Positions 3,361 to 63,967 of a stretch of DNA of 63,967 nucleotides are shown here, one piece after another. Both the position numbers and the translations under genes were made by a program. A model generated the notes under the pieces. That model made no database searches and was not told where the DNA came from. It worked only from the letters and a program-made list of their open reading frames with translations. The first letter of the stretch is position 1, and every line of letters begins with the position of its first letter. This DNA is from Chrysophaeum taylorii (taxonomy: Eukaryota; Sar; Pelagophyceae; Pelagomonadales; Pelagomonadaceae): positions 1 to 63,967 of the forward strand of contig JAQMWT010000543.1 of assembly GCA_029834535.1 (NCBI GenBank), written 5' to 3'.

Positions 3361-5000
3361 AGTACCAGCAAAGTCTGTTCCCCCTCTGGGCAAATAGCTG
3401 TCCAATGGATGCCACCAGAGGTGTTGAGGGTGGAGAGTTCGGGAGATTCGAAATCGAGGAAGCGATGTTGAAGATCCCATCGAAAATCAGCGAGTTTGCC
3501 ACCAGCGGATTTGTAGGCGCCAACAGTAGAGGCTTGCAGCCGGGCAGTGATAGATGCCATGGAGGAGGCCTTGCGGTTGTTAGGGCGCCGGGAACCTGGG
3601 ACAAGTTCGAGGTTATTTTGTGAAAACAGGTCCTTGTAAGACGGTAGGATTGGCGGTGGCGAAATAGTGGTGTCGTCATCAGCTGGAGAAGCTGAGGGGT
3701 TGGTGTCTGGAGACTGAGTCTGAGACGAGGACGGAGCGGGAGCGGGTGAAGGGGGAGCAGGATTAGGGGTGTGCCCCCTCAGAGTTTGATTCCCCCTCTG
3801 CAACGCATCATCGGGGTCATCATCTCGATGGGGCGTAATTCTTAAAGGAACAGGTGGAGCATCAGGTGGAGGAGCATGTTCAGGATCAAGAGTGTAACGG
3901 TGAAGCATGAATGTGAAGGTAAGCTTGGAGGAGACGCGAAGTTGTCCGTTCTCCGGGTTGAGAACGACATCTGCCTGATGATCGACATGTGGAGAGATAA
4001 GTGGGTTTTGCGAGTTGGTGCAGCATAAGAAAAGATATCCGCGGCGTGACGGTTCGTACTTACGGTGTTCATGAGGTTCCAGGAGAAGGAAGAACTCACT
4101 ACCAAAGATTTTAAGAAAGCCAGGTTGAGGGGAGCTCGATTGGTTGTAAGGAAACTGTTGCGGGTGTGGATACGTTCTAGGGAGGCGCTAGGCAAGATAT
4201 TATAGGACTGGATGGTGTGGATCACAGCCCATGGAAAGTGAATTGCCGGCTCTACAATTTTGGCGCCACGGTAGTGTGCAATGATAAGACTACGAAGGCG
4301 AGTTGAGGAGGCAGAGGCAATGAAGCCTATACTTTGTTCGACCTCATGATTGAAATGGTGTAGGTAAGGCGGGAAAGCAACAAGGTTAATGCCTTTATCG
4401 ACACGGTAGGGTGTTGTCACATGCAAGCTGAAGTATGGACGACACGCGTCAGATTTGACTGTGCGCAAGCGGACATTAAGTTGGGTTCTGCAAAAGGCGT
4501 GCAGAAAGTCCAGGGCCTGCGCGAACTCAGTTGCGTTAGTAGTGCGCGTAAAATACGCCAGCAAGAATTTCGACAGCAGCTCCTCAAAGAGTATGATGTG
4601 AGTGTAGCCGCCCCATTCCGAAGGAATTGTCACGTAGCCTCCATCACAAGCCCAGACATCACCTGGTTAGTGAGTCTGTTCAAAGTTGGGCTTGGTTTGA
4701 TTATGAGGATCGTGGCGGTGACGTTCGTTATGGCAGATGCAGTCCATACAGATATCTCGATCGGGGATGTCGGATGCCGAAAAGCCAGGACGTGCAAGGA
4801 CGTCGGAGCTTTGGCTGCCACATTGTCAGGGAAATGGCGAACCTGCGGAAGCGGTTGGCGCGTTCTTTCGCGTTTTGGTATTCGACAGTGCCATGCGGGA
4901 GGGATTTGCGAGGAATCGACTTAACGGGTATGTGTCGTTTGCTCCGAACGCTAAATTTGAGCTCAGTAGCCGAGTCTAAGGAGGGGACGTTGCTGTCATC
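3361..5000 (-). pseudogene. Copia integrase core and C-terminal region (Cop1)
   Basis: On the minus strand the frame shows the catalytic ACDGGY aspartate (near 4650), a second aspartate in VKSDACRPYFS, and the glutamate helix FNHEVEQSIGFIASASSTRLR, followed by WAVIHTIQSYN. These align with Cop2 and Cop3. The C-terminal extension (3361-3908) is proline-rich and ends at GIHWTAICPEGEQ, where CopA interrupts it. Two frames are needed (3309-3908 and 3842-4633), so it is frameshifted. Integrase would join element cDNA to the chromosome. Confidence 0.75.
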
Positions 5001-6170
5001 GGACGAGGCAAGTGCTTCTTCAGGTGTATTTCATGAGGAGCGGTAGTTTAACAACATTTCGGTCCAGCTTCGGTGGGCGATATGGCTTATGAATGCGTCT
5101 GCCTGAGAAACCGTGTCAGAACTGTGACTGAAAGGGGACAGTTCGCGAGTGAGAAAAGTAGACACATAAGTCTTCTTCCGAATGGCAGTATCATGTTGAA
5201 AGGTAGGGTCCAATATGAGGGACTTCTTGTCGACAATTATGCGGCAGATATGCGTATAGAGCGCATGATAAGTGCCAGCCGGTAAAGCATTTCTGAGAAG
5301 ATCACAGCAAAGATCATTCTCCAGCGAAAGCAAGAAGGACTCTTGAGGGCGAGTGTGGTTGTTTGCTCTAATGAGCTCGGGGCGCGTTGGATATCGAAGT
5401 TGGCCATTACGTGGATCGAGTAGGATGATGTTGGCGTATTCCCGTAATGTGGGCAAGGGGGCAAGCATGGAGTGGGTTTTGGGGCCAAGTTTGCGATCGC
5501 TATCCCGTAAGTAGCCAAGATGCCGACTGTGGGGTAGATGATAATCTCATAGGGCAAAGTACCTGTCCTTAAACAAGAATCGGTCGCAAGCTGAGTCGTA
5601 GGCGACACAGTTTTGCATAACCAGTGCGCACGGAGTTAGTAGACTGTGGATGGCAGGAAGAGAGCCGTGAGCAGTGTCGACCTGAGGGTGCGCTTGTACT
5701 AGCCAACGGTAGCCTTGGAACGAGTCCAAGTGAATCGTTTTGTCGGCGGGGTTATCGGAAGCGGTGAGCGTGTAGGTAGATCCAAATGGATCAATCGAAG
5801 CCCTGTACTTACTAGCCGTGTTCTCAACTAGGAGGTTGCCTTCGGAGTGTTGGCCACTGGTACGGAAGTGGATGTTGTAGGTGGATGAAGACTTTGCAAG
5901 AACTAACCAGTGTGCAGATTGGTTAGTTTCGAAAATCGTGACACATAGGACACAGGAGTGGGTGTGCTAGGCGAAGGCCTGGCGAAGACATTGTAGAGAG
6001 TAACGAATGCCGTGAGGCGGATGGGATTAGACGATCCCTGCAGAGGCTGATTGGATGATCTCGTAAAGCCCAAGTTATGATAAGTGCATTGAGGATGCGA
6101 CGTTTGGGAGGATTGTTCGAGAGCTTGTTGGGAATGAAGCCTGAGGAACAGAAGATTTAAGGTTTCAAGT
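5001..6170 (-). pseudogene. Linker between methyltransferase and integrase (Cop1)
   Basis: About 1.2 kb of degenerate coding sequence corresponds to 24950-26230 of Cop2. Recognisable shared blocks are RANN.T..Q.SFLLSL..DLCCD and NA.PAGTYH..YTH.C, which sit N-terminal to the integrase. The role of this region is unknown. It may be a pre-integrase domain. Frameshifts split it into short stretches (5031-5468, 5237-5608, 5547-5729). Confidence 0.5.
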
Positions 6171-6180
6171 TCGCGAAGGC

Positions 6181-6840
6181 TTAGCGATCAGAGCCTGCGC
6201 GGGTGTGCAAAGGAAAGGTTTTAGGTAAAGGAACCAAAGGAGGATCAGGGTAGATGCGAATCCAGTCTTTAGCATGATCTTTGGAGAGCCAGAGGGACTT
6301 TGAGCTAGAGTTGATATCGTCAGCAATGTCCAAAAATCGTTTAGGGTGTTGATTGGGCCAGGAAAGCACATCAATGCTGCCTGTGTTATATCTACGAGCA
6401 ACACAGATCCATCTCTCTCTGGATTGGTAGTCGCCACAAACGAACGTTGGAGATCGATCGACCACATCGACCGTATAATTGAGTGTAGCGTGGATAAGGT
6501 TGACCACGGAAGTACGATCCCGGTGTACCTGCTTGTGTGGGGGAGTCATCTCTGCTAGAAGAACGAGGGGCTTGAGCAACTTAATAACGGTGAGCATGCT
6601 GTCAAATAGAGCATCGTCAAGTAAACTGATTAAGTCCGGGGTTTTGGTGTTCTTCGACAGATTGCGGTTCGTGCAAGGTGGTGTGAATTCTATGATGTCA
6701 CAATACAGTTTCCGTCTCTCCTCTTCAGTGATAGAGTGAAGGTGATTGATAAAGGAAGGGAGGGATTGGAAAATTAACACATATGGGAATCGTCTGCGTA
6801 ACATGCGCACAATAGTATCATCAGACTCGACAACAACTTT
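6181..6840 (-). pseudogene. C5-cytosine DNA methyltransferase-like domain (Cop1)
   Basis: The open frame 6181-6810 has C5-methyltransferase landmarks in order: TPPCTNRN (motif IV, candidate catalytic Cys, residue 46), LLAEMTPPHK (motif VI position, Glu 87, with EMT for the usual ENV) and GDYQSRERW (motif VIII QxRxR, Gln 129). Spacings Cys-Glu 41 and Glu-Gln 42 equal those in Cop2 and Cop4. A LDIADDI block near residue 170 resembles the Dcm region after motif VIII. The S-adenosylmethionine motif I is absent: the KVVVESDD strand (near 6826-6840) joins directly to protease-side sequence, so about 135 bp present in Cop4 are deleted. This copy should be inactive. Confidence 0.7.
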
Positions 6841-6844
6841 AAGA

Positions 6845-8349
6845 TCAGTGGTTTGGTATTGCTCCGTACGTAGTCATTACGCTTACGAAGGTTGAGTAGT
6901 AAAGGACGGAACCAAGGGCGCGAATGTAGTTTCTTGAGAAGGTAGGCATAGTAGTGACACAGGTCGCGATTTTCATTTTACCTTGTCAGAGGAAATGCAA
7001 GTGATCGTAATTCGATGTTTCTGTCGCGCGCAAGAACATAACGTAAACAAGGCAACGCTGGTAAAACGCGGACCACAAAATGAATGGGCGCCTTTACATC
7101 CGTGTCAACAAGGCTAGGTAGATTGGACGGACTTGGTTGTTCGCTATCGTCGAGGGTGACGGTTAGTTGGGCCTTGTTCCACTCGGGTGCACTCACAATG
7201 AAGAGACGTCGTCCTTGCACCGGTTTGAGGAACAGAGCATAATCAATTTTCACATAGCCGATTCCTGGGTGGTCTGGTATAGGTGTGAGGATGTTCTTTG
7301 TTAGCATGATGTGTGAAACTTGCTGTTGACCTGTAGCGGTTTGGACAACAGGGGCACTTTTGGGATCTATTGGGACAATGTGATTCGGGATTGCAAAGTC
7401 AAAAGTCGTCATGAGCGAAATGGATGCACAACTATCTAAGTAAAGAAAGTGAAAGTGATGGGGAGGGTTATGTTCCCTCATATATTTGGTTAGAAAGGCA
7501 TTTTCGCTGTGGACACTGGTAGAAGGGATGCTAGCTGCATACATATAGGTTGGTTTAACAGCACCCTTATCGCCGACTGCGGTTGCGATGGAGGACGGTG
7601 CCTCATGAATCCTGAGCCTTGCGAGGGCATCCGCCCTCCCGGCGTAGGTTGGCACCTATTCGCCTCCCGGGCGGGCCGGTTGGCAGCCGGAACGTTCGCA
7701 GTGGGGCGGGGTATGATGGCCGGGGGGCGAAGACGGAAGGTTATCGACGAGTTGGTTGTCAGTCACATCGCGGTCTCCTCGTCGCATGGCGACAAGCTTG
7801 ATGGTCACTCTCCGCCGACCGACCTTTCGGCGCTCCTCGTCTACAGGCCCGTGATTCCGGACTGGCTCCTGTCGGTCCGGCCTGGCTCCCATGCTCGGGA
7901 GAGGTCTGAAGTTAGTTAAGTTAGTTAGTTAGGTTTAACAGCTTGGACGTGACAATGAGTTGAGTAAATTTGATAGGGGCGACTGGGGGAGTAGGTTCCC
8001 CATTGTCGGCTCTTAAACCATTGTCGATGTCAACTGGTGACAGTCCAGTGTGCGTGGCTTGTATTGGTGACGAACTATTTGACTGCGCTGTAGACTGAGC
8101 AGTAATTTGACGGCACATGGCAGCAGTGACATGGGACGAGAGCAGGTTTAATTGCTCTGGAGAGAGCTGAGAGATAGCAGCCCCAGTTAGTTTGACTGAC
8201 TCGGCAGAGGTAGAAATGGCATTAGTAGGGCCATGACAATCGGAACCAGAGTGAGATGTAGAGTTGGGTCCAGACACAGTAGGTTGTTCTGGCCCATAGT
8301 TTAACGACGTTTCGGTCGAAAGCAGATGTAAGTCAACATCACGCATCAT
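6845..8349 (-). pseudogene. Gag C-terminus and aspartic protease (Cop1), split by SINE S1
   Basis: 7932-8349 encodes the serine/threonine-rich end of gag. 6978-7562 encodes the protease with LYLDSCASISLM, QTATGQQQVSHIML and GYVKIDYALFL, aligning with Cop4 62017-63126. The active-site triad reads D-S-C-A instead of D-[ST]-G-A. SINE S1 sits between the parts. After a stop at 6978 the same frame continues to about 6845 (ENRDLCHYY...LLLNLRKRN), as in Cop4. Confidence 0.7.
7563..7931 (+). mobile_element. SINE-like element S1, full length
   Basis: A 369-bp GC-rich repeat starts ACCCTTATCGCCGACTGCGG and ends in a GTTAGTTAAGTTAGTTAGTTA tail. It is flanked by an 11-bp target duplication GGTTTAACAGC (7552-7562 and 7932-7942) and interrupts the Cop1 gag-protease frame. 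No long ORF is credible. The variable TTAG tail, variable 5' truncation among copies and 8-13 bp duplications point to LINE-driven retroposition. I could not place convincing Pol III A and B boxes, so the origin of the head is unknown. Confidence 0.8.
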
Positions 8350-17939: not shown

Positions 17940-18310
17940 CCTTACCCTGATCGCCGACTGCGGTTGCGATGGAGGACGGTGCCTCATGAATCCTGAGCCT
18001 TGCGAGGGCATCCGCCCTCCCGGCGTAGGTTGGCACCTATTCGCCTCCCGGGCGGGCCGGTTGGCAGCCGGAACGTTCGCAGTGGGACGGGGTATGGCTG
18101 GGGGGCGAAGACGGAAGGTTATCGACGAGTTGGTTGTCAGTCACATCGCGATCTCCTCGTCGCATGGCGACAAGCTTGATGGTCACTCTCCGCCGACCGA
18201 CCTTTCGGCGCTCCTCGTCTACAGGCCCGTGATTCCGGACTGGCACCTGTCGGTCCGGCCTGGCTCCCATGCTCGGGAGAGGTCTGAAGTTAGTAGTTAG
18301 TTAAGTTAGT
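17940..18310 (+). mobile_element. SINE-like element S3, right arm of an inverted pair
   Basis: Full-length copy, head CCCTTACCCTGATCGCCGAC, tail GTTAGTAGTTAGTTAAGTTAGT. The left flank is TTCATGTAC, matching (as reverse complement) the outer flank of S2. The right flank TATTGTCT matches the inner flank of S2. S2 and S3 are almost identical and opposed, giving a long inverted repeat with a spacer of about 167 bp. Confidence 0.8.
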
Positions 18311-21245: not shown

Positions 21246-21349
21246 CATCTTTTGTAAAAAAAGTATCAATGTTTTGTCAGCGAGCTGCAATTTTCGTTTC
21301 TGTAAGGGCTAGTTTAATATCATTGCGGACATAGTGACAAGGGTGATGA

Positions 21350-23423
21350 TTAAGCATCCTGCTGGACTATGGGTTGTTGTAGACCAAGTAACGTGCGAAA
21401 CCTAGCAAAGAATGGAGCACCGAAGGGCTTAGTGAATCCATCAGCAATATTTTGGGTGCCAGAAGCATGGTGCAAGCCAATACGTCTTAGGTGAACATAG
21501 TCACGAATACGAAACCAGCGTGTACTGATGGCTTTGGCTTTGGTTGCACTATCCGGATTATTCGATAAGTGGATGGCAGAAGCTGAATCTCCGAGTATGG
21601 GGCTGTTGCGTATGAATGACATGTCTGACGGGTGAGGATTGTCATGGGCATCGCAATCTAGTAGCAGATCTTTCCCTGGAGGTTGGCGAAGATAGTATTG
21701 CGGATTTATAGCAAAAGCCATTTCCGTCAGCAGTTTACGTAGCCAAACCACATCATCAGCACACATATTTAGGGCAATAAGCTCACTCTCATGTGTGGAA
21801 GTAGCCGTTATAGGCTGTAATTTGGATTTCCAAGTAATAAGGGAACCAAACAGAAAAATAGCATAACCAGTTGTGGATTAGGGATCTTGTTCGTATGAGG
21901 GCGCGTTATCAGCGTCGACGAACGCAACCAGTGGATCAAAATTACCTGAATCCACTTGTTCTTTAGTATAGTCCAACATGGTTGCCATATCAGTGCGATT
22001 GCCGATGATAGATCTAAGATGTTCCATTAGAGCGGAAGAACCAGAGTAGTACCATAATCGAAGATTGCGATTTTCTGGTTTGCGCAAGTAGCGAAGTACT
22101 CCTGTTAATACCTGGACGTGCAGATATTCTGGATTGTGCATTCCACGGGAGCAGCGACTGAGGCTTTGCGATAAATCAGGGCGACAGGCCAACTGTACAA
22201 AAGTGAGCTTGCCGAGTAGGGTGGAGAAGGTGTGCTGGATGAACTTGTCTATGTCGGAGGATGGTTCTCCAGTTTTAGATATAGTTGAAGGAGACATGGG
22301 GTAGATGTAGGACGTACATTTGCTAGTATAGGGTACTCTTCAAACAAGGCATTAATTTTAGCTTGGCAGTCGAGTGAGATGGAGCCATCGGTAGTGCGTG
22401 TTACTCGCATGCCTAGAAGAGTATGAACTTCTTCAAAGTCTTCAACGGAGTATTCTTTCTTTATGGCCTGTTGAAATTCACGACGTAGACTTTCCGCACA
22501 GATGACGACAGCATCATCCACTGGTAGAGTACAAAGTAAAAACGTAGCGTCGGTTTGGACTTTGGCATAGATCTAATTATCTGTTCGGAAGCGTCGATAT
22601 CCTAACGTGTCAAAGAAACCGTTTGTGGTTTGGTTCCAGTGTGCAGGGCTCTGTCGTAATCCACAAAGAGATTTGAGCAGTATTGGGAGACGTCGTCCCT
22701 GGTACTTTGCGTCTTCTGGGTCCAGTAGGTGAATACCTTGTGGCAATTTAACGTAGATATGAGAATCTATGGGGGCTTGGACAAACGCGTTGGGCACATC
22801 TATGTGATAGACAGGAAGTCTGAGGTGTGATGCGAGAGCTAGAACACAACGAATACCAGTGAGCTGCGCCATTGGACTGAATGTATTGAAGAAGTCGGTG
22901 CCAAGTGAAGCTAAAAATCCCCTCAGGACCAATCTCGCTTTATGTTTGATGTATTCGCCGTTGTCTTTATACGTAATACCAGCCGGGTATCAATAGGCTT
23001 GGAGTTGGCCATGGGCAACGATAACTTGAAGCAGTAAAATTGGACAATATCAAAAATCTCCTTGGAAATTGCGGAGATGTAAGCCTTGCGGTCAGCATCT
23101 GAAAGACATTTTAGGCAGGTCAACTCATATTCATCAATATCGATATCCTTGCCTTGAATTTTATATTTATATTCGTCCGGACCAACAGTGCTGGGATCTT
23201 GAGCGTGAGTTTGGTGGATGTTCTTGTAAGAATCAGCAATACCGGTAGTATGATCGGGATCGGGAGTTTCGACAAGTTGAATGACAAGTAGAGGATCATC
23301 TCCAAGGTGTGCATCGATGTAATGAGACTGCACAGTGATGTAGTCTTCAATGGCGGAGAGGTGGGGTTCTGAGGCGCCGTAAGAAGCATAGTTATGATCC
23401 ATAACAAAATGGGGCGTTAGCAA
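21350..23423 (-). pseudogene. Copia reverse transcriptase and RNase H (Cop2)
   Basis: RT N-terminus at 22923-23423 and 22573-22932: STPIDTRLVLRIKT-type block, GTDFFNTFSPMAQLTGIR, YHIDVPNAFVQAPI, SLCGLRQSPAHWNQ. 22249-22521 carries LPVDDAVVICAE in the YVDD position (Pro for Tyr). 21878-22297 is the connection region, and 21350-21766 is RNase H with LGDSASAIHLS and NIADGFTKPF. Four frames are needed, so it is inactive. It is followed by ORF3 after about 105 bp. Confidence 0.8.
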
Positions 23424-25830
23424 GCATTTTGAGCGGGAGGAACTTGAAAAGCTTGAGCGTGTTCAGAAATTAGATGAACAAGAGCACGAGGAAGGTGGAA
23501 GTCCGAGAGGCGGAAGTCGTCGAGGAGATGAACAGGGGTGGCAGCCGACGGATGGCTAAGGCTACTATGACACATACCAGAAGAAGACTGGAATAGCGCT
23601 TGATGAACATGATGATGAAGAGTTTGTGTAAATTCCCCCTCTGGAGGCATAGCCATCCAGTGGATGCCATGAGCAGCATGAAGGGAGTGGAGGGTGGGGT
23701 CGCAGAAGGTAATGTACTGCTTGGAGAGGTCATACTTGAAGTCAGCAAGCGCACCACCAGCTTGTTTATAAGCGGCAACGGTTGGCGAAGCAATGCGGGT
23801 GAGAACAGCATTGAGATTAGTCTTGCGACGAGGCTGAGGGTGATTAGGACCGCGGGTGAGACGAAGGACGTCTTGTGAGTATAGGGACCGATAGGATTGT
23901 AAAATGGGTAAAGCATTGGACGGCACTTCAGATGCCGTAGGTGTGGCGACAGAAGCAGCGGGAGCACAGGCTGGAACTGAAGTTGGAGCTGGTGCTGGAG
24001 GTGAGGTATTCCCCCTCTCGTGTTCAGTGTCGTGAGACACAGCATTCCCCCTCTGCAACGCATCACTGGGGGTGCTTTGAACAGAAAAGGGTATCTCAGG
24101 TGAAGGTGCGGGTGGGGGATGTTGTTCGTAATCGGGAGGAGAATTAGAAGTTAGATGAGGAAAGGTAAGTTTAGATGAGACACGGACTTGGCCGTTCTCA
24201 GGATTAAGGACAACATCAGCTAAGTGGTTAACATGGGGTGTAACCAGAGGGTTAATGACATTAGCGCCACATAAGTAAATGTAAGGACGACAACGAGGTT
24301 CATACTTGTGAAATTCATTAGATTCCAAATGCAAATAACAAACAGAACCGAAAGGTTTGAGGTAGTCTTGTTGGGGAACATTACATTGGTCCAACAAAAC
24401 TTGTTGGGGACTTAACACTTTATTATAAATGCGTTTGAGTGAGACATTACGGAGGAGATTGTACGACTGAATGGCATGTATAACAGCCCACGGATAGTGT
24501 GGGGCCGGATCTGTTAGGGGGTGACCTTTATAGGATACATTGAGCATATGCCGGAGTCGTGTAGACGCAGCAGTTGCAATATGGCCCACAGCGGCTTCTA
24601 CTTCGTGATTAAACACATGCAAGTAGGGAGGGAAAGCAGACATATTAATGCCATGCTCAACACGAAAGGGAGTAGTAATGTGTTGAGACAAATAGGGTTT
24701 AAAAGAGTCACAGTAAATTTGCTTTAATTGCACATGAACATAAGTGGAGCAAAAGTTACGAACAAACTCGAGGGCATTACAAAATTCGCTAGCATTAGTA
24801 GTACGACAAAAGTATACTAACAAAAATTTAGAGATGAGACATTTGAAAACTAAAAATGTGTCGAAAAGAACCCCATTCGGACAGGACAGATACGTAGCCA
24901 CCATCGCATGCCCAGGCTTCACCAGGTTGAAAGACTTTTTCAAAGGAAGGTTGCTTGGTAAGGTGATGTGGATGAGGAAAACGTTTTTTATGTAAGGTAC
25001 AATCCACACAAAACTTACGGTAGGGCACATCTGAAGGATGATGTCCCGGGCTGGCGATGACCTGAACAGCTTTTATAGCTTGAGAGTCGCTGGAATGGTG
25101 GGTGTTGTGGAAGTTCGTAGCACGTCTTTGGGCATCGCGAAAAGCAAGAGTACCTCTAGCATGGACTTTTCTGTCAAAAGAAGCATGTTTCTCGTGTAAC
25201 TGTCTTGGGGTTATGAGAGGAATAGGTTTCGTTTTTGTTTGAGATATATATGGTTCATCTAAGGATGAGACGTTAGACATGAATACATGTGCTACTGAGT
25301 CGACATGGAAAGAAGGAAAGTTCTGATTAGACGAGAGGTTGTCACAACATTGAAATATTTTATTGGAAACATATAACATTGTGATAGAACTCAGGTTTAG
25401 TTGTAGGGATGAGTCAGTTTGAAAAATGTTAGTGGAAAATGTTGACCTATAGTTTTTGGTTAGAGAAGTATGATCAGGGTCGATAGGTGGTGATAACGTT
25501 AATTTACGTAAATCATAGACAAGCTGACACAAATGTGTATAAATTACATGATAAGTCCCAGCCGGGATAGCATTAGCGATCATGTCACAACAAAGGTCCG
25601 GGGACAAAGACAACAGAAAATTAATCTGGTGCGCTGTGAAGTTATTGGCGCGTGCCAATTCGCGAGTTGAGTAGTGTCGGATGCGATCAAGTCGTGGATC
25701 GTAAAGGATCATGTTCGCAAATCCACGAATAGTCGGGGTTGGTGTATGGATAGGATGAACTTTAGCGCCCTTCTTTCTATCGCTAGATGTAATAAAGCCG
25801 AGGTACCTGCTTTGAGACAAATGCATGTCA
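23417..25830 (-). pseudogene. Copia integrase with long C-terminal extension (Cop2)
   Basis: 24828-25826 gives a linker with RANNFTAHQINFLLSL and NAIPAGTYHVIYTH, then the zinc-binding H-H-C-C region (GHHPSDVPYRKFCVDCTLH) and the catalytic ACDGGYVSVLSEWG. 23417-25030 gives a second aspartate (IYCDSFKPYLSQH), the glutamate helix FNHEVEAAVGHIATAASTR, YPWAVIHAIQSYN and then a proline/alanine-rich extension of about 250 residues with DALQRGN. A single frameshift near 24830-25030 separates the parts. Confidence 0.8.
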
Positions 25831-25871
25831 CTTAAAGAGAAAATTTTATCGATGAATTCAACGTGGTTGGA

Positions 25872-26228
25872 CTAAAAGATAAAAGAATCCTGAAGCACAT
25901 GTGAAGTGAAGGAGACAGGTGTTTGCACGAGGCGACGGGTGTCTTGGGTTTCATTACTGTGGTGGTAAGCTTGACACAACCAAAGAAAGCCGGTCACAGG
26001 ATCGAGAGTAGCTGTCTTGTCGATTCCGGATTCGTGCGTTTGGAAGGTACAAGTTTCACCAAATGAATTAATGTGTGCCTGGTATTTAGAAGAAGGATAG
26101 GTAACTGTGATGTCTCCACATGTATGTCTTCCGCCTGTGATGTAGATAATGGAAGAGCTCGAGGATTTATTCAAAAATAACCTGTGAGATGGTTGGTTAT
26201 ATTCGATAGTTGTAATACGAAAATACAC
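25872..26228 (-). pseudogene. Linker after the methyltransferase (Cop2)
   Basis: Open frame with NSFGETCTFQTHESGIDKTA and PVTGFLWLCQAYHHS, overlapping the end of the methyltransferase frame by 58 bases in another frame. Cop1 has a degenerate counterpart (5547-5940). I do not recognise the family. It could be a further part of the methyltransferase-integrase polyprotein. Confidence 0.4.
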
Positions 26229-27165
26229 AGGTAAGGTGGTAGAGTTTGGGAACAGCGTCCCATAATATTATTGAGGATGACAAACGCCTTCAGTTCAATG
26301 GGCGAAGTCATACACGTAAGGGGCTTCCTTGAATTCGTTAATAATCCCAAGCGAAAGTTAGAAATGCCCTCCATTTCGTCTTGAGATGGGTGTTCGGTCG
26401 TTTTATGCGAATGTAGGAACAGCATGGTTAGCGTTTCTAGCTCGGTAACAGTTAGGCGAACGGGCCCCGTGCGACTGAAGGTGCTGTAAGTTTTAGGTAT
26501 GGAAACAAATGGTACGTCAGAGAAGACTTGTGTCCATGGCTCATCGACAAGTAGCTTTCGACTTATGGTATTAGCGTGATCCGCAATGTCCAGGGAGGAA
26601 GTTACTCGCTTATTGGGCCAGTTATACTGGCGGGCAACGAGGATCCATCTTCCCCGTGCTTGGTAGTCTCCACACAAGTAACAGGGAAAGCGATCGCATA
26701 TATCCACCGTGTAATGCATTGTAGAGAAGATCAGATTGGCAACTCGTATATGATCTTCATAGGATGCAGAGTGTGGTGGTGTCATCTCCATAAAAAGAAC
26801 AAGGGGCTTTAAAAGCTCAAGTACACTTAGAGCACTTGGGAACAAGGAGTCATCCATATCTCGCTCGAAGGTTGATATAGATCTCCCGTTGATTATGTTG
26901 CGATTAGTACATGGGGAAGTCAATTCCACAATATCAGAGTAGTATCGAGCACGTTCTGCGTCTGATGCGCGATGCAAATAGGTTAGCAACTTTGGAGGGG
27001 ACGGAAACACTTCAATGGAATTGTCAAACCGTCTTCGAAGCATATGCGTAAGATTTTCATCAACAGGAACTTTAACGTTAATGTTGATTCGCAAGTCATT
27101 GGAGGCGCAAGCCAAGAATGCAGGAGTAGACAACCCTGAACAAAGTATTGTTACAGTGGGTGCGC
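26171..27165 (-). CDS. C5-cytosine DNA methyltransferase-like domain (Cop2)
   Basis: The open frame runs 26171-27241 (356 codons), but its first 12 codons are in SINE S4; the domain proper starts near 27165. Numbered from 27241: motif I-like ILCSGLSTPAF (residues 32-42, usual F.G.G replaced by C.G.S), a V-D-E position at 60-62, motif IV TSPCTNRN with candidate catalytic Cys 111, motif VI position FMEMTPP with Glu 152 (EMT for ENV), motif VIII GDYQARGRW (Gln 194, QxRxR), SLDIADHA near 215, then RLTVTELETLTMLF resembling the R.LTxxE block before motif IX. Such enzymes transfer methyl from S-adenosylmethionine to cytosine C5. The position between protease and integrase means it is part of the element. 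Whether it is catalytic is unknown. Confidence 0.7.
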
Positions 27166-27204
27166 GTGAGCTAGAGTTGGATGTTATGGTATGAAGCAAA
27201 CTTG

Positions 27205-27275
27205 AGCATGTCCGGCCTGGCTCCCATGCTCTGGCTCCCATGCCTCGGGGGTGGTCTGAAGTTAGTTAGCTAGTT
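27205..27275 (+). mobile_element. SINE-like element S4, strongly 5'-truncated
   Basis: About 71 bp of the 3' end of the SINE (TCCGGCCTGGCTCCCATGCT, with a short internal duplication, then AGTTAGTTAGCTAGTT), flanked by the 10-bp duplication AGCAAACTTG (27195-27204 and 27276-27285). Element plus duplication add 81 bp, a multiple of three, so the frame relation of protease and methyltransferase is kept. Confidence 0.75.
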
Positions 27276-27298: not shown

Positions 27299-28321
27299 TC
27301 ATACAGGGGGTGAGAAATGCTTGCGAACATAAGGCAACTGTGAGTGCATGGAATCCAGAATAAGCCACGGGATATAGATTGCACGTTCTAGTAATTTGGA
27401 GTAGAGTTTCGGCATCTCACGTTGTTCGTTGATAGCACTTAATTTAAACTGTAATGAGCGAAGCTCCATCTTTCGAGCTTTACCTTGCTTTAGCGAATAG
27501 ATTGGGAGCGTAGGAAATAGGCTGTTTAAACTAAACAGAGTAATCTTGACGTTGTCGTCAATCTTGCTATGGATAGTTGACTGTCCTTTAAATTCAACCC
27601 CATAGAGATGTATACCAAGTTTATCTTCTCCCTGAGTCATGCTGATGATGTGCAAATCAGGATCGTTATACTGATTTTGCTTGGGTAGGAAAAGAGCAAC
27701 ATCTAGCTTGACGTAGCCGACGTTAGGATGCTTTGGGAGAGCAGGAATAACAGTTCTTATTATCATTGCGTGGGTGATGCTTTGAGTGTCCGTAGCCGTC
27801 TGGATGGCGGGCGACAAGGATTCGGGCAGCTTAACGATGTGTAGTGGGTCAGCATAACGTTTGAAGTTAACCACGTGTTGGGAGGCACATGTGTCTGCAT
27901 ACCCAGGTGTAGTCATTAATGGTAAGTTGTACTCATTATACAACTTAAGCATTGTTGCGTAACACGCATGTGTAGAGCTTTGACCAACGACATGCTGCGT
28001 CATAAAACTTTGCGTTTGTTCGGAAGGTACAACAACGAGTGTAAAACCATTATCTAATTTTGGAAGCAACCTAGGGGGCTCTGTGCCATCCTCGTTCTCT
28101 CCGTCATTTTGATTATTGGAAAGCTCAGAATTATGAGGAGTTTCCCGTGCTTGACGACGAACGATAGCATTCTGTGCTTTGGCATTTATGTGCTGCAGTA
28201 ATGGTTGAGGAATATTATCGATTTCTTCATCTTTGATAGAAAGAAAGGTATGAAAAATCTTTTCCGTTTCAGCAGTCCCCCTCTGCTCCGCATCACTACG
28301 CTGCAGGAGCAGATGTATCAA
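27299..28321 (-). CDS. Aspartic protease region (Cop2)
   Basis: An open frame of 340 codons with the active-site block GYADTCASQHVV, IQTATDTQSITHAMI, PNVGYVKLDVALFL and KMELRSLQFKLS, aligning with the Cop4 and Cop1 proteases. The triad reads D-T-C-A. It ends in a UGA codon; with SINE S4 removed, the methyltransferase follows in the same frame after about 30 codons and no other stop. It overlaps the upstream gag frame (28296-29270) by 26 bases, which could be a programmed or degenerate frameshift. Confidence 0.7.
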   Translation of the reverse strand: MIHLLLQRSDAEQRGTAETEKIFHTFLSIKDEEIDNIPQPLLQHINAKAQNAIVRRQARETPHNSELSNNQNDGENEDGTEPPRLLPKLDNGFTLVVVPSEQTQSFMTQHVVGQSSTHACYATMLKLYNEYNLPLMTTPGYADTCASQHVVNFKRYADPLHIVKLPESLSPAIQTATDTQSITHAMIIRTVIPALPKHPNVGYVKLDVALFLPKQNQYNDPDLHIISMTQGEDKLGIHLYGVEFKGQSTIHSKIDDNVKITLFSLNSLFPTLPIYSLKQGKARKMELRSLQFKLSAINEQREMPKLYSKLLERAIYIPWLILDSMHSQLPYVRKHFSPPV

Positions 28322-29472
28322 CTTGATCCTTTTCTTCTGCGATGTGAGACTCTTGAGACTCTTTATCTGTCTCTATAAAGTTCGAGATGGTGTTGGACAT
28401 TGTATCAACGCGTGATAGGTATAGGTGAACTTGAGTGGCTTCCTCAGGATCAAGAGTCTGCGCAGAGGCTTGAGAAGCGGTGGTCCAGAGGGTACTTAGT
28501 AGGCTCTTCAGTTCTTCTTGTACCATTCTATAGTCGGTAGAAGGATTGGGATTCGCTTCCTGTAATTTACCAAACAGATGGCGAAGACGGTCAACTTGAT
28601 AAGTAGCCCGATCCATTAATGACATATTGGAGCGTGAGTTGCGGTTAGTGGATTGTGAATAGACAGGACGGTCGAAACTGGTGCCTTTAACATTATAATT
28701 TGAAGGTGGACGATAGTAAGACGTGTCTCGAGGTGAGATTGTAGACGCTTTATCTTTAGCGTTACGCAGTTTACGAGCGTTGAAACCAGATTGTCCAGCG
28801 ACTGTAGCCAACAATGAGTAGGCATTGTTTAACGAGTCATGGGACTGGTGAATGGTATCCTTTTGCAGTACTTTAGGTGGCTTGGAGGCGGTAGTACCAG
28901 GGATGTGCGGAATCCAAGAGGCTGGTTTATCCAAGCGTCGGTTAGTTGAAAACTTCGTCTCATTATACACCTTCAATAAGAACTCCAGTAACGGGCGAAC
29001 ATCAGTAGGATCCACTAATTTCAAAACATCAGGATCACGAGTAGAGGTGTTGCTCGAACGTGACTCATATAGTTTACACCAGTCTAACAGAGATTGTGCG
29101 TTGCGTTCATGATCATTGGGGTTGGCATATAAACGATAAATCTCCTCGTGAGCCTTGAGGGCTATTATAGAGTCGTTAAACTGAACTGAACTGAATGAAG
29201 CTTCTTCTTTATTAAGTTGTTTGGCCTGAGTTTGAAAAGCAAGAAGTTGTTCTATACATGAGCGTGCCAATTAACATCTAAGGACATTCGATTGAATTGT
29301 GATTTATTTCACTAACATCTGTACAAGATACAGTATCGTAGTAATAATAGGACATTAACATTATTGCTCTGGTTTTGTTTGGGTGCGCAGTTATCGCATA
29401 AATTTCTTTGAGTTGTGCCCACATAGCGAGGGCGGGGCCATCTTGAGATTCCAAATCGAAAAACGTGTACAA
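28296..29472 (-). pseudogene. Gag, middle and C-terminal parts (Cop2)
   Basis: 29278-29472 (MYTFFDLESQDGPALAMW, PNKTRAIMLMSYYYYD) aligns with Cop4 gag near 60890-61040. 28296-29270 continues with IYEEI-like and YESRSSNT blocks, RLDKPASWIPHIPG, FNARKLRNAKDKAS, YRPPSNY and a C-terminal helix. A frameshift separates the two. Gag would form the particle. No CCHC zinc knuckle is visible. Confidence 0.7.
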
Positions 29473-38330: not shown

Positions 38331-38335
38331 GGTGT

Positions 38336-49346: not shown

Positions 49347-49351
49347 ATGAG

Positions 49352-50352: not shown

Positions 50353-50355
50353 AGG

Positions 50356-52214: not shown

Positions 52215-52238
52215 GTTGGCTTCACGAAAAACTTGTTG

Positions 52239-56990: not shown

Positions 56991-58494
56991 TAGTACTTAC
57001 ACATGTGTCTGTTCGAAATCGTGTATAGCCTAATGAATCAAAGAAGCCGTTTATGGTTTGATTCCAAAGGGCAGGGCCCTGACGTAAGCCATAGAGAGAT
57101 TTAAGTAGCTTTGGGAGACGACGGCCTAGGTATTTAGTGTCTTCGGGATCAAGAAGGTAAATGCCTGGTGGCAGTTTGACATAGACATGAGAATCGATGG
57201 GAGCTTGAACAAAAGCGTTAGGGACGTCGACATGGTAGACTGGAAGTCGCAGATGAGCTGCTAGCGCCATAACACAACGGATGCCAGTAAGCTGTGCCAT
57301 AGGGCTGAATGTGTTGAAAAAATCGGTGCCCAGAGAGGCTACGAATCCTCGTAAGACTAGGCGTGCTTTATGTTTAATGTACTGACCAGCAGCGTTGGTT
57401 TTTATACGTAGGACGAGGCGGGTGTCAATAGGCTTTGAGTTGACCATTGGCAACGCTAGTTTAAAGCAGCCAAACTTAACAATATCAAAAATCTCCTTGG
57501 AGATGGCAGCAACATAAGCTTTGCGATCAGCGTCGGAGAGACCTTTGAGGGAGCTCAACTCATATTCATCAATTTTGATATCTTTGGCTAGAATCTTGTA
57601 CTCGTCCGAACCAACCGTGCTGGGATCATGAGTCGTCGTCAGATGAGTAATCGCGTAAGAAGCGACATTATCGTGCAGATGAGTGTGATCGGAATCTTCG
57701 ACGAGTTGAACAACTAGTAGAGGAGCATCACCAAGGTGGGCCTCAATGTAATGCGATTGCACGGTGATATAGTCTTCGATGGCGGAGATATGAGGCTCGG
57801 AGGCACCATAAGAAGCGTCATTATGATCCAAAATGGAGTGGGGCGTGAACAAAGCATAAACATATTGAGCGGGAGGAACTTGAAAGGCGTGAGCATGTTC
57901 AGAAATTAAATGAACGAGAGCTCGAGGGAGGTGAAAGTCTGCAAGGTTGGTGTCGTCGCAGAAGTGAACACGACGAGCATCAGGCGATGGGTGGCTATGG
58001 CTCCTATGACACATAACTGAAGAGGACTGTGAGATCGCTTGGTGCACATGGTGATGAAGGGATGGTGTAAATTCCCCCTCTGGAGGTATAGCCGTCAAGT
58101 GGATGCCAGGAGCAAGATGAAGGGAGTGGAGGGTGGGGTCGCAGAAGGTTGTGTACTGCTTCGAGAGGTCATACTTGAAGTCGGCAAGCGTACCACCGGC
58201 GTGTTTATAAGCGGCAACAGTAGGCGAGGCAATGCGAGTAAGAACATCCGTGAGATTGGTTTTGCGACGAGGCTGAGGGTGATGAGGACCACGGGTGAGA
58301 CGTAGGACATCCTGGGAATAGAGAGACCGATAAGATGGGAAAAGTGGCAAAGTGTTGGAAGACACGTCAGATGTAGGTGTGGTGACGGAAGCAGCGGCGG
58401 GTGCAGAAGCAGCTGGAGCACATGCGGGAGCGGGAGAAGGAGCATGGAAATGAGAAGAAGAGGTCCCCCTCGCATCGTCAGTGTCGGTCGGCAT
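56959..58494 (-). pseudogene. Integrase extension and RT N-terminal half (Cop3)
   Basis: 511-codon open frame: proline/alanine-rich extension, RALVHLISEHAHAFQVPPAQ, DEYELSSLKGLSDADRKAYV, PIDTRLVLRIKTNAAGQY, LGTDFFNTFSPMAQLTGIR, YHVDVPNAFVQAPIDSHVYV, SLYGLRQGPALWNQTINGFF. It ends at DTCVST, where the deletion begins. This is the longest pol frame in the Cop1-Cop4 lineage here. Confidence 0.85.
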
Positions 58495-59460
58495 AGCATT
58501 CCCCCTCTGTGCCGCATCATGGGGGGTGCTGTGAACAGAGAAGGGAATGTCGGGTGAAGGTGCGGGAGGTGGATGCTGTTCATAATCGGGTGAAGATTTA
58601 GAAATAAGATGAGGAAAAGTCTCAGGGTAGAGGAAATGCGGACTTGACCATTCTCGGGATTAAGGACAACATCGGCTAAATGATTAACATGGGGTGTTAT
58701 TAAAGGGCTTATAACGTTAGCACCACATAAGTAGATGTAGGGACGACATCGGGGTTCATATTTATGAAATTCGTTAGGTTCCAAATGCAGATAACAAACA
58801 GAACCAAAAGGTTTGAGGTAGTTCTGTTGGGGAACATTACATGGGTATAACAAAACTTGTTGGGGGCTTAGGACTTTATTGTAAATACGTTCGAGGGAAA
58901 CGTTAGGGAGGAGATTATACGATTGGATGGCATGTATAACAGCCCACGGGTAGTGTGGTGCCGGATCTGTTAGGGGGTGACCTTTATAGGATACATTAAG
59001 CATATGCCGGTGTCGTGTAGACGCGGCAGTGGCTATGTGACCAACAGCGGCTTCTACTTCATGATTAAAGACATGTAAGTAAGGGGGGAACGCGGACATG
59101 TTAATACCATGCTCCACACGAAAGGGGATTGTAACATGCTGAGATAAATAGGGTTTAAAGGAATCACAATATATTTGTTTGAGTTGTACATGAACATAAG
59201 TAGAGCAAAAATTGCGGACAAACTCAAGGGCGTTACAAAATTCGCTGGAGTTAGTGCTACGACAAAAGTACACTAACAAAAATTTAGAAATGAGACATTT
59301 AAAAACAATGATATGTCGAAAGGATCCCCATTCTGAGAGAACGGATACGTAACCACCGTCACATGCCCAGGCTTCACCAGGTTGAAAAACTTTTTCGAAT
59401 GATGGTTGCTTGGTAAGGTGATGTGGATGAGGAAATCGTATTTTATGAATCGTACAATCC
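58495..59460 (-). pseudogene. Copia integrase core (Cop3)
   Basis: 58095-59279 covers IYCDSFKPYLSQH, FNHEVEAAVGHIATAASTR, YPWAVIHAIQSYNLLPNVSL and FHKYEPRCRPYIYLCGANVI, with a frameshift near 58640. The first catalytic Asp block (ACDGGYVSVLSEWG) lies near 59330-59370 in another frame. Cop4 interrupts it at 59460 within the zinc-binding region. Confidence 0.8.
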
Positions 59461-59774
59461 TGCAGAGAAATCTGCTGCCTCTTACCCTTATCCGTCCGTT
59501 GAGAGCGTGATCTCTTCCTTACCCTTCTTCTTCCTTTCTACACAATCAAATAGTCCTCTGATTTGTGCCTACACTCATCATCACGGTCTAGCGCGTCCCG
59601 AGGTATGTGTCACTATACACTTTACCTTTCTCGTGTAGTTCTAGATGCCGCCTGTCGTGTTCTGAGGATGTAGGGAACATACCTTTTCATTCCCCGAGTT
59701 AAATACTCCCAGAAGTTCATGATGAGACGGGATGGTTTCCCAGGTGACTTACTACTGCTTGCTAATGCTCTGCA
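59461..59774 (+). repeat. 5' LTR of Cop4
   Basis: 314 bp from TGCAGAG to CTCTGCA, a 7-bp terminal inverted repeat with standard TG...CA ends, followed at once by the PBS. The sequence differs from the Cop2 LTR family although the coding regions are related. The candidate target duplication is AATCC (59456-59460); the other side is outside the window. Confidence 0.8.
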
Positions 59775-59788: not shown

Positions 59789-60295
59789 GCGGGTCCCTGA
59801 GAAGCCATGTGTTAAAACGTGCACGTAACCTATGGGTATTGGGTCGTTACCGCGCCGACACAGCCTCGCCACGAAAACACACTTGTAAATACAACGCCAT
59901 TACCATTGGGCTGTATATAATACTTTTTTGCACACGTGATCGTGTAACCTTGTGTGCACCTGTTCGTAGCATCGTATTGTCATGTCAATGTTGATGTGTG
60001 TGTAATTGGCTAACCTGTACTTTTGCACACATGTTATGGAATATTTTGGTTACGTCCACTCGTACATTCCATGGCAATGCACTTAACAAGCTCCTTGCGA
60101 GCACCAAAAATAACCAGCTGCCTGAGTGACTACGCTTAGCGACACTACTCTGGACTCACAGCTTGCACAGTCGTCAAATAGACATCTCTCCATCGAAAAC
60201 GATGAATGTACATAGACACCGATAGACAGACCCCCTTAGAATGTCTAGACAGTGTCAACTGCGTGACTGGACCCACAGGTTCCCCGTCAACTGCT

Positions 60296-61960
60296 ATGGC
60301 AGAACACGCAGCACGAGCCGCACCCAAGGCGATCACAGGTGCGGATATACTGAAGCTCGAAGCTCCTGTAGTTGAGTTTCTTAACAAAGGAAATCGATTT
60401 CGGCTTCAGACTCGCAAGGTATCCTTGCAAATCAAACACATTAAGCAATTATTACGGTCCAGTCATGCCGATGCTTTCCTCGAGTACGACTCATACGAAG
60501 CATATACTCGGTCATGCAAGGACTACGAGATCATCCGGAATCAAATTCTCGATCGCGTTTTCCTGGAATGGAAGACCGATAGGGCTGCTGATCTCCGTTT
60601 AGCTGTTGATGAATTGCCCCCGGAGTATCAGGAATGGCATTTCACCAACGAAGCTTTCCCCCACTTACCTGATGCAGAAGTAGCTCAGCTAGCTACTGTC
60701 TGTTACGACTATGAAGTCAAGGCATTACGTCTTGAAATCGACGCTCGTTTCTTATAAGAGGAACGAATTTTAAATCGCGCGCACCCGAAGGCACTAGCTT
60801 TCGACACCCGTGTTCGTGCCCCTGTTACCATGTTTTTGTTAACTGCTGCTGACTGGCACACTTATCAGAACACGTACGCTACATTCTTGCATACTTACTT
60901 CAATCTTGAAAGTGTTGGAAAACCGGCACTTGCGGCCTGGCCCGCCATCAGTGAGGTATACAACAAAAGTTATTTACCCAACAAGGCTCGAGCTATTATG
61001 CTCATCGCCTTTAGTCACTACGAGTCTGTTACGACTACTGACGTGTCCTATTTGAAACAGCAATTTAACTCTGTTGTTTATAATCCTAACTGGTATGTCC
61101 ATGTATTTATCGAAGCTGTCCTAGCATTTAGGCAACTCTCTTACCAACTTAACCAGGAAGAGACTGACCTTCAATTCGACTTTGGCACTCTTTGTATAAA
61201 AATCTATGAAGAGATACATCGGCATTATGCCGATAATACCAGCAACAACCGTTACGATCGTGGTTGGGTAGATTGGTGTTATATGTACGAAACCCGATCT
61301 TCATCTCGGCCTGTGCCAGAAGCTGAACGATTGTGTCACCCTACCAACCCTAGCTACATTTTAGAATACGCATTAGACCTTTACAGTGTCGTATCAAGTG
61401 GGTCGAACAAAAGACGTTTAGAACGCCCTGTTTCTTGGCAACCCTATGTCGAAGGTTTATCATCTCAACCAAAGCCAAAGTTACTACTTACAAACACTTT
61501 GGACTCATCAGACAAAAGTCTGACTCAAACTGCTAACACACTCGCCTTCATCACTCCGTCCCAACCTGGTACATCTTCCACGTTTAATGCTAGACGCTTG
61601 CGTAACTCTAATGGTGCTCGCCAGCCTTTCTCTCGCAGCGATTTATCGTATTATCGTCCTGGTTATTCTTACGTCACCAAGAAAACTGCCGGACAGTCCC
61701 ATGACCGTCCAATTTACCCCCGCACTTTTGACAGGTCCTCTCGGTCTAACATGAAATTATTAGATCGAACAAACCACACCTTAAACACCCTGCGAGAACC
61801 GTGTAGTGAACTTATACTCCCTGAAAACCAAAAACATCAGATTCCTCCAAAATCTTCTTTTCCGAAACCAAAGCGACTCTCCTAGATAATGATACCACGG
61901 CTCAGCTACAACAGAATATCGACAAGTTATTCGAGACTCTATTACAATCAGCTGACATTC
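60296..61960 (+). pseudogene. Gag of Cop4
   Basis: The ATG at 60296 (MAEHAARAAPKAITGAD) is chosen over 60206 because Cop2 gag starts at the matching place. DAFLEYDSYEAYTR and PEYQEWHFTNEAFPHLPD follow. A single TAA at 60755-60757 interrupts an otherwise continuous frame that goes on with MFLLTAADWHTYQNTYATFL, PNKARAIMLIAFSHYES, NNRYDRGWVDWCYMYETR, RLERPVSWQPYVEGLS and FNARRLRNSNGARQPFSR. The frame shifts near 61800. No zinc knuckle is visible. Structural particle protein by position. Confidence 0.75.
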
Positions 61961-63126
61961 TGTCAACGAAATCTACTGAGGACAACCGTAGTTTACTTCG
62001 TCTAAACGAACAGCTCATGTTTGCAGAAGACATCATTTATGATGCAGACGTTCATCTATCCTCGACCGAAAAGTCGTTAAACTACGTGGAGCCACAACAC
62101 CATACTGTTGTTACTGCACCCACCCCAAAGGCAACTCCTCCTACTACAAACACGCAGGGTGATTCTTCCAATACAGTGTCTAACCTCATTACCGCTTCCG
62201 CCATCTCGGCTTCACCACCAGCATTATTGTCCTCGCTATCTTCACAGGTCCAATCTGCCCTCAACCTACCATCACAAGCCGAAACCAAAAGGGATGCCGA
62301 TCATACTTCGCTATCGTCATTTGATGAAAAGCACGGCATGGCTGATGAGGCTGACGAACCATCACCACCTGTTCAACCGATCATTATTCCAACGAACCTG
62401 TTAATGCTGGAGAATTTCTTTACCGCTAGTCTCTCCACTGCTTGCCCACATTCGGAAAACGCCTTCCTCACCAACTACATGAAGGTAAACAGCGTCCCTC
62501 CACATTGCTCTTTCCTATATTTTGACTCTTGTGCTACCATCTCATTGATGTCCACCTGCGATTTCGCTATACCCAATCATATAATACCATTGGACTCTAA
62601 GTACGCTCCGATTGTTATTCAGACGGCAACAGGACAACAACGGGCATCACACATGATGTTAACACGTAACATTGTTGTTCCCCTACCAGATCATCCACAA
62701 GTTGGCTATGTTAAGATCGACTTCGCTTTATGTCTTCAGCCAGTGCATGACCGACATCTCGATATCCTGAGCATGCTCGAGTGGAACCATACGAATCTGA
62801 CCACTGTGTTCAATGATCGAGCTGAGCCAAAGCTCAGCGCTGTCACGAGCCGCATAGACAAAGATGTACGTATACCCATATATTATGTAGCAGCTAATTT
62901 ACCTGCTCTCCCTTGTCTCACTTACAACATCGCGCGCGACAAGCGGCTGGAACTTCGCTCTCTCGCATTTCCCCTCAAGCGATACCATGAAAACAGGGAT
63001 CTACTGGCATACTACAACTACCTACTCCAAAGAGTTTTACCAGATCGGCCGTGGATTTGCCCTTTGGTTCTCAATCTTCGGAAACAGAACAAATTTGTTC
63101 AGCAAAATACGCAGCCATTAACTTGA
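61961..63126 (+). CDS. Gag C-terminus and aspartic protease (Cop4)
   Basis: Open from about 61830 in this frame; the first ATG is at 62017. A Ser/Thr-rich stretch is followed by HSENAFLTNYMK, LYFDSCATISLMSTCDFAIP (active site D-S-C-A), QTATGQQRASHMMLTRNIV, GYVKIDFALCL and LELRSLAFPLKRY. It ends LVLNLRKQNKFVQQNTQPLT and UGA, followed by CUA. The methyltransferase is in the same frame 57 bases on, after a further UAG at 63157-63159. Confidence 0.75.
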
Positions 63127-63159
63127 CTACTCTCACGCCCAGTGTTTCTCTCACAATAG

Positions 63160-63967
63160 TCCAATCTCCGCAAACCCTCTGTCATGTTACTTTGCTCTGG
63201 TTTGTCAACTCCGGCGTTCCTGTCTCAAGCCACTAATGACTTAGGCTTAAATATCAATGTAAAGGTTGTTGTTGAGTCTGATGATACGCTTGTTCGTATG
63301 TTACGCCACCGTATTCCTACTGTATTACTATTTGAATCTCTCCCCGCCTTTATTAACCACCTTCACCTAATCTCACCAGAGGAGAGGCGCACATTCTATT
63401 GTGATATAATTGAGATCACTCCTCCCTGCACAAACAGGAATTTACTAAAACAGCAAAAGACAGCAGAATTACACAGCCTGCTGGACGACTCTCTTTTCGA
63501 CAGCATGTTGTCAGTCATCAAGCTACTCCAGCCCTTGGTACTACTGGCTGAGATGACGCCTCCGCATAAGTACTGTCATCAAGACCACATCACAGTGGCC
63601 AACCTTATCCATACTACACTTGATTACTGTGTCGATGTTGTTGATAGGTTCCCGACCTACCTCTGTGGCGACTACCAATCTAGAGAAAGATGGATATGCA
63701 TCGCACGCAGATATTCTACTGGACCAATTAAACTATTATCGTGGCCCATCCTCCACGCCCCTTCCTAAAGATCGTGGATGATCTACAAGCTATTCCCAAG
63801 CGCCTTTGGCTACCTAACAACGTATCCAAAGACTGGATCCAGGTGTTCCCCGATCCTCCATATGTCCCCGTTCCTAAAACTTTTGCACCTTACTCTCGCA
63901 CAGGTTCTGCTCAGCTTACTATGGCTGTCCTTGCATCCCTCAATATGTTACTGCTTCGCCTTCACAA
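63160..63967 (+). pseudogene. C5-cytosine DNA methyltransferase-like domain (Cop4), runs off the window
   Basis: Numbered from the ATG at 63184: motif I-like LLCSGLSTPAF (2-12), VVVESDD (Glu 31, position of the cofactor-binding acidic residue), ITPPCTNRN (motif IV, Cys 82), LLAEMTPPHK (Glu 123), GDYQSRERWICIARR (motif VIII, Gln 165). A stop at 63766 reflects a one-base shift; the next frame continues LKIVDDLQAIPKRLWLPNNV, like the Dcm region after motif VIII, and AQLTMAVLASLNML. Spacings Cys-Glu 41 and Glu-Gln 42 are identical to Cop1 and Cop2. Confidence 0.75.

Follow-up and report, generated by a model that had tools for sequence, protein, structure and literature searches.

Copia retrotransposons of Chrysophaeum taylorii carry a divergent C5-cytosine methyltransferase-like domain between protease and integrase

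Two related families of Ty1/Copia retrotransposons in the pelagophyte Chrysophaeum taylorii carry a divergent C5-cytosine methyltransferase (MTase) in Pol, and we consider it likely that this enzyme is made and packaged together with Pol and targets cytosine in DNA. The domain was encountered in a contig of 63,967 nucleotides (JAQMWT010000543.1 of assembly GCA_029834535.1; "the window"), and the genome searched for relatives comprised 70.8 Mb in 697 contigs. A sequence-only reading of the window had claimed a C5-MTase-like domain in three Copia copies, Cop1, Cop2, and Cop4, which represent family 1. This was borne out by profile-profile scores compared with shuffles, by the predicted structure, and by relatives exceeding the PF00145 cut-off, and the domain is a real, divergent C5-cytosine MTase-like domain.

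The profile check suggested by that reading gave a divided result: all window copies stayed under the PF00145 cut-off of 22 bits (Cop1, 16.4; Cop4, 11.2; Cop2, no match), while three family-2 sequences (38.9, 29.9, and 32.2 bits) and, just barely, the relative P0004 from an ENA contig (23.0 bits) exceeded it. In family 2, one frame of 1868 residues contained both PF00145 and the Copia reverse transcriptase domain over cut-off. Aligned with hhalign to six C5-MTases (set A5), family 1 scored 47.0, family 2 94.9, and both jointly 95.4, compared to 23.2, 26.6, and 18.4 for the best of 60 column shuffles each; A5 includes four phage references chosen from family-2 tblastn matches, which favors the family-2 and joint scores but not that of family 1. 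Reversal controls were run beside the shuffles. The AlphaFold model was modest, and its predicted fold is that of a class I S-adenosylmethionine-dependent MTase of the C5 type: all 50 listed PDB entries re-aligned to the model by VIA-align were C5-MTases by title, with DNMT1 and DNMT5 first and DNMT1, DNMT5, DNMT3, HhaI, and DNMT2 within ∼2 Z units. Foldseek ranked two DNMT2 structures on top, followed by many Rossmann oxidoreductases from rank 3. A single-sequence AlphaFold model of Cop4 (pLDDT 35.5) was not used. The sub-threshold window copies and the oxidoreductases in the Foldseek list could indicate some other Rossmann-like domain with a chance Cys-Glu-Gln spacing; given the shuffle and reversal controls, the C5-only VIA-align list, the relatives over the Pfam cut-off, and blocks resembling motifs IX and X in the expected order, we regard this as very improbable. 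Queried with Cop4, the profiles of families 1 and 2, and P0004, the PDB gave no significant sequence match (best C5-MTase, HhaI at E 0.32; lowest E, 0.11, an unrelated dioxygenase). A protein database search with P0002 returned no match at E ≤ 10 among 7705 candidates, and none of 143 pattern matches in viral contigs searched with A6 was confirmed.

The elements were identified as Copia by RVT_2, which exceeded its cut-off in L035 (E 8.4e-42), L070, and L071. In L070, rve (residues 1016-1110, under cut-off) preceded RVT_2 (from residue 1686), i.e., integrase lies ahead of reverse transcriptase. With the protease identified by eye from its D-S/G-C/G-A motif, the domain order in both families was protease, MTase, integrase, reverse transcriptase. 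Natural family-1 copies encode a Gag-protease of 960 (L035) or 892 (L034) amino acids ending at an in-frame stop; the second open reading frame (ORF) of L034 covers MTase and integrase (1230 amino acids), and reverse transcriptase follows. Within the window, the proposed position between protease and integrase was confirmed by tblastn for Cop1 and Cop2; the contig ends within Cop4, before an integrase is reached. An MMETSP transcriptome and an ENA contig also contained relatives. The features of the window copies are as follows.

Cop4, 60206..63123, plus strand: gag-protease region, spread over more than one frame (93% and 86% identity to the natural ORF1 of L035 by tblastn)
Cop4, 62518-62535, plus strand: protease DSC motif (motif scan)
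Cop4, 63124..63126, plus strand: TGA between protease and MTase, then CTA; candidate readthrough stop (sequence, kept in relatives)
Cop4, 63157-63159, plus strand: additional in-frame TAG (sequence)
Cop4, 63130..63967, plus strand: MTase, cut by the contig end (tblastn and motif scan; two-part tblastn match with a break at ∼63753)
Cop4, plus strand: motifs I 63193-63210, II 63271-63291, IV (TPPC) 63418-63438, VI (EMT) 63550-63567, VIII (QSRER) 63667-63693
Cop2, 27302..28372, minus strand: end of ORF1 holding the protease (ORF list, tblastn)
Cop2, 27299..27301, minus strand: TGA after the protease, then CGC, 52 codons ahead of motif I
Cop2, 25551..27202, minus strand: MTase, frame broken at ∼26.19-26.26 kb (tblastn and motif scan)
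Cop2, minus strand: motifs of the N-terminal part, I 27125-27142, II (two residues short) 27050-27064, IV (TSPC) 26900-26920, VI 26771-26788, VIII 26645-26671
Cop2, minus strand: motifs of the C-terminal part, IX 25656-25679, X (NAIPAGTY) 25551-25574, in a frame different from that of motifs I-VIII
Cop2, 23819..25109, minus strand: integrase region with HNTHH 25095-25109 and ACDGGY 24894-24911 (tblastn, motif scan; SH3_retrovirus 24.5 bits, under its cut-off of 27)
Cop2, 22273..23420, minus strand: reverse transcriptase region (tblastn with the L035 reverse transcriptase frame)
Cop1, 5268..6846, minus strand: MTase, motif I missing and frame broken (tblastn and motif scan)
Cop1, minus strand: motifs II 6811-6831, IV (TPPC) 6664-6684, VI 6535-6552, VIII 6409-6435
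Cop1, minus strand: motifs IX 5373-5396, X (NALPAGTY) 5268-5291 (motif scan)
Cop1, 3376..4831, minus strand: integrase and the pol region after it (tblastn)

Alignment and motif scan confirmed the spacing described from the sequence: in Cop1, Cop2, and Cop4, the PPC/SPC Cys is followed at 41 residues by a Glu and, at 42 more, by the Gln of a QxR, all in register. The exact spacing holds for these copies and not for all relatives: motifs IV and VI are two residues closer together in P0003 and P0004 (identity to Cop2, 39% and 33%), and motifs VI and VIII are one residue further apart in L034. Nevertheless, the Cys (IV), Glu (VI), and Gln-Arg-Arg (VIII) are invariant in the three window copies, P0003, and P0004. 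The copies are not independent, as had been assumed, but homologous, the other two being 70% and 55% identical to Cop4 (translated and aligned). The motif I-like loop expected ahead of this block was recovered in Cop2 and Cop4 by motif scan and is missing from Cop1.

Across family 1, the Pro-Cys nucleophile of motif IV was present as PPC/SPC in all three window copies, 29/30 loci of subfamily A, and 20/20 of subfamily B, and the Glu of motif VI as EMT in 29/30 and 20/20, respectively. Motif VIII (QxRxR) is likewise present, with a stop inside the motif in one A locus and the form QARGR in 2 of the 20 B loci, one being Cop2. All three motifs occurred together in 28/30 A and 20/20 B loci. Family 2 has LPCQ as motif IV and, in the copies read, ENV as motif VI; with these two canonical, L063, L064, L065, L070, and L071 carry Ile in place of the motif VIII Gln. 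Motif I (CSGLST/CSGMST) aligns with the FSG motif I; the double glycine is absent in family 1, and a CSG motif I without it also occurs in a host DNMT5-like frame and in PDB 7r76.

Blocks resembling motifs IX (RHYSTREL, RYPTRPEL) and X follow in the expected order in Cop1 and Cop2, 0.5-0.9 kb past the earlier block and after ∼350 residues. Position 26171, formerly given as the end of the Cop2 domain, is thus only the end of one frame, with motifs IX and X lying beyond it in another. The distance from motif VIII to X was 376-384 residues in five family-1 copies and 354-355 in two family-2 copies, which points to an enzyme of about 550-600 residues whose recognition region is long. The IX-X part of both families jointly aligned to real MTases at 24.6 (best of 25 shuffles, 17.5), with single families not above shuffles, and the recognition regions of the two families aligned to each other at 31.3 versus 19.7 for 25 shuffles.

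In family 1, Gag-protease and MTase share one frame across a TGA, and the MTase opens Pol. In 29 of 37 subfamily A loci, this TGA lies 23 residues ahead of the motif I Cys (at 21 in one more), and 25 of these 30 show the hexamer TGACTA; two further loci have TAA at 24, three have no stop within 40 residues, and two lack the anchor motif. In subfamily B, TGA lies 26 residues ahead of motif I in 18/20 loci, one of the others having no stop within 40 residues and one no anchor motif, and TGACGC was found in 17 of the 19 TGA seen. L014, L019, and L026 have no in-frame stop within 40 residues ahead of motif I, which may reflect decay or an alternative mode of expression. The conserved in-frame TGA suggests readthrough in family 1, and UGA followed by CUA (G) is named as a high-readthrough context in an excerpt of PMC12233894. 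In Cop2, the TGA is 52 codons from motif I because extra sequence, which also contains a second stop (27266-27268), lies in between. In Cop1, the protease match ends where the MTase match starts (residue 44) at 6846, so stop codon and motif I have been lost. Readthrough as a rule common to both families was withdrawn after a frame check of family 2. There, the protease-MTase-integrase-reverse transcriptase frame begins after TGA-CTA, and the long ORF before Pol (578 amino acids in L070; 391, open, in L071) is in a different frame, which makes a frameshift or a separate start likelier than readthrough. The frame offset between this gag-like ORF and Pol is equal in L070 and L071, a hint at programmed frameshifting.

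Family 1 is abundant. The best 150 of 925 candidates were scored with the Cop4 query and the best 150 of 854 with the Cop2 query, of which 128 and 123, respectively, were free of stops. Since both lists end at 78-80% identity while the two queries are only ∼57% identical, overlap is unlikely, and family 1 occupies at least 300 places in the genome; the number of separate insertions is slightly lower than that of matches, as some contigs look duplicated (C25/C521, C10/C297). For the catalytic part, the median pairwise ratio of nonsynonymous to synonymous divergence (dN/dS) was 0.097 in subfamily A (pooled polymorphism ratio pN/pS, 0.25; 40 sequences, 3 of them repeat fetches of the same copies) and 0.022 in subfamily B (19/20 loci, window copy left out). 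Between A and B, synonymous sites were saturated and dN was 0.18-0.46. As the loci are best protein matches, dN is biased downward; mean dS values of 0.16 (A) and 0.36 (B) indicate that they are not merely identical copies. Judged from these sequences, the catalytic part looks to be under purifying selection. Such constraint bears on the idea that the MTase is degenerate and kept as a nucleic acid-binding or structural Pol module devoid of catalysis. The family-1 changes of motif VI from ENV to EMT and of motif I to a form without the double glycine would fit such a module, as would the family-2 copies read, in which the motif VIII Gln is missing. However, dN/dS is low, the residues of IV, VI, and VIII are invariant from the window copies to P0003 and P0004, and the same motif I occurs in the host DNMT5-like frame and 7r76; we judge a module without catalysis unlikely.

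Of the 57 genomic PF00145 matches over cut-off, 7 were read. They comprised one DNMT2-like gene (C634; E 3.9e-39 to 1g55; frame of 360 amino acids in all), one DNMT5-like gene (C621; E 3.4e-129 to PDB 7r76), and five family-2 copies, with no obvious DNMT3 among these seven. Both host proteins belong to the same superfamily as the element MTases, and the DNMT5-like one shares their CSG motif I, but the element MTases group apart. In an unrooted tree of 16 sequences, a small reference set with long branches and no DNMT3, families 1 and 2, P0003, and P0004 were split from the six other MTases, four from phages and two from the host (97/99), and family 2 stood next to the remaining element sequences (91/90). 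Because the element MTases form a separate group, recent capture of a host DNMT5- or DNMT2-like gene is not indicated, and the above-shuffle alignment of their recognition regions favors one capture before the families split. Assignment to a DNMT class was not possible with the references compared.

Domain identity and order, conservation of the family-1 TGA, abundance, and constraint are the observations on which we build; from them we infer readthrough or frameshifting, packaging, catalysis, DNA as substrate, and a hand-over to DNMT5. In family 1, a minority of ribosomes would pass the TGA to yield Gag-Pol, with the MTase as the first domain behind the stop, and in family 2 Pol would be reached by another mechanism, e.g., a frameshift. 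As part of Pol, the MTase would be packaged with integrase and reverse transcriptase in the virus-like particle. It would probably act on cytosine, either in cDNA of the element itself or in the DNA that receives the insertion. DNMT5 enzymes are described as maintenance MTases in an excerpt of PMC10538959, and the host DNMT5 could propagate a mark written by the element. That the element pre-methylates its cDNA in the particle with its own de novo MTase and that DNMT5 copies the mark after integration is a scenario we put forward tentatively and hold to be doubtful.

The copies were examined for traces of CpG methylation. Observed/expected CpG was 0.84-0.99 in eight copies, and there was no clear CpG footprint: the C/T difference rate was highest at CG but barely above CT in both subfamily A (CG 0.064, CT 0.062, CC 0.052, CA 0.038) and subfamily B (CG 0.163, CT 0.155, CA 0.125, CC 0.119). 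Since long CpG methylation should lead to CpG decay, these data argue against heavy, lasting CpG methylation of the copies, and methylation is thus unproven; they are compatible with methylation in a different sequence context, with cDNA being marked transiently, or with an RNA substrate. The last of these, a C5-MTase acting in the manner of DNMT2 on element RNA or the tRNA primer instead of DNA, would also accord with the two DNMT2 structures heading the Foldseek list, and an excerpt of PMC5890265 (De Mendoza et al.) considers RNA methylation for the enzymes borne by long interspersed elements (LINEs). In contrast, VIA-align puts DNMT1 and DNMT5 first with all classes so close that the fold does not separate substrates, and a VIII-X distance of 354-384 residues (seven copies) is unlike the compact host DNMT2 frame. 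Overall, RNA appears an improbable substrate, and we prefer cytosine in DNA.

Retrotransposon-borne DNMTs were, as stated in the sequence-only reading, already known from dinoflagellates and charophytes: excerpts of PMC5890265 describe C5-MTases carried by Symbiodinium LINE and DIRS elements and by a Klebsormidium Gypsy element, with SymbioDIRS enzymes methylating CG in yeast. SymbioDIRS-Dnmt3, SymbioLINE-Dnmt, and KnitGypsy-Dnmt3 share with the present elements a C5-MTase in the coding sequence, many copies, and purifying selection, and in the DIRS and Gypsy elements the MTase is likewise in Pol. There, the enzymes are DNMT3-type or Symbiodinium-specific and sit in LINE, DIRS, and Gypsy elements, whereas ours are Copia with the MTase between protease and integrase, a long VIII-IX region, an in-frame TGA ahead of the MTase in family 1, and an enzyme that could be given no DNMT class in a tree lacking DNMT3. 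One sentence of PMC12344493 (2025) mentions DNMT3 members in LTR Copia and DIRS elements of streptophytes and dinoflagellates; the 2018 work it cites calls the long terminal repeat (LTR) element Gypsy in its charophyte section. As read in the elements, the motif order I, IV, VI, VIII, IX, X is shared with M.HhaI and Dcm-like phage and bacterial C5-MTases, but sequence similarity to these enzymes is weak, and M.HhaI has ∼105 residues between VIII and IX versus ∼350 here. No Copia element with an MTase between protease and integrase was found in open-licence literature judged by title and start of abstract. Hence, retrotransposon-borne C5-MTases as a kind are known, while what looks new is the carrier, the place of the domain, the arrangement around the TGA, and the divergent enzyme.

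These elements add abundant Copia retrotransposons, in two families of one genome, to the known carriers of cytosine MTases, give the enzyme a defined position within Pol, and make testable why an element carries an enzyme class that hosts use for silencing elements. If the proposal holds, methylation would be divided between a parasite that writes and a host that maintains, which can be checked in a genome with a DNMT5-like gene, and the elements, present at ≥300 places, could supply most of its new methylation.

The window holds further retroelement sequences.

Cop3, 56998..59465, minus strand: related integrase-reverse transcriptase copy (tblastn)

Cop3 looks truncated: upstream of its integrase part, in a stretch where Cop4 starts in the opposite direction, tblastn gave no MTase match. 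A Copia-like element at 48185-53105 (minus strand) has closely spaced protease-like and integrase-like ORFs and lacks an MTase match, which suggests that the domain is not general to Copia here. Family-2 Pol fragments (integrase-reverse transcriptase part, no MTase part) lie at 32334-34293 and 16307-16924 (minus strand). Gypsy-like Pol ORFs in both orientations, including 597 and 825 codons, were seen by eye at 34778-42692. A ∼0.9-kb repeat occurs four times, twice per orientation (13.4-14.3, 19.5-20.5, 31.3-32.2, and 47.0-47.9 kb), with 88-90% identity to the 31.3-32.2 kb copy; these may be LTRs or another element. The copies at 19.5-20.5 and 31.3-32.2 kb (88%) were weighed as LTRs of Cop2 and could not be assigned, because a Cop2-type ORF (18306-19046) lies beyond one of them and similar repeats at 13.4 and 47.0 kb are in opposite orientation. 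Downstream of RNase H, MTase-type Copia elements appear by eye to have an extra gene with CTKC-like Cys pairs (20454-21308 and 55467-56144, minus strand; 1187-1807, plus strand), followed by a coiled-coil-like ORF (18306-19046 and 54111-54908, minus strand); both sit where some retroelements have env.
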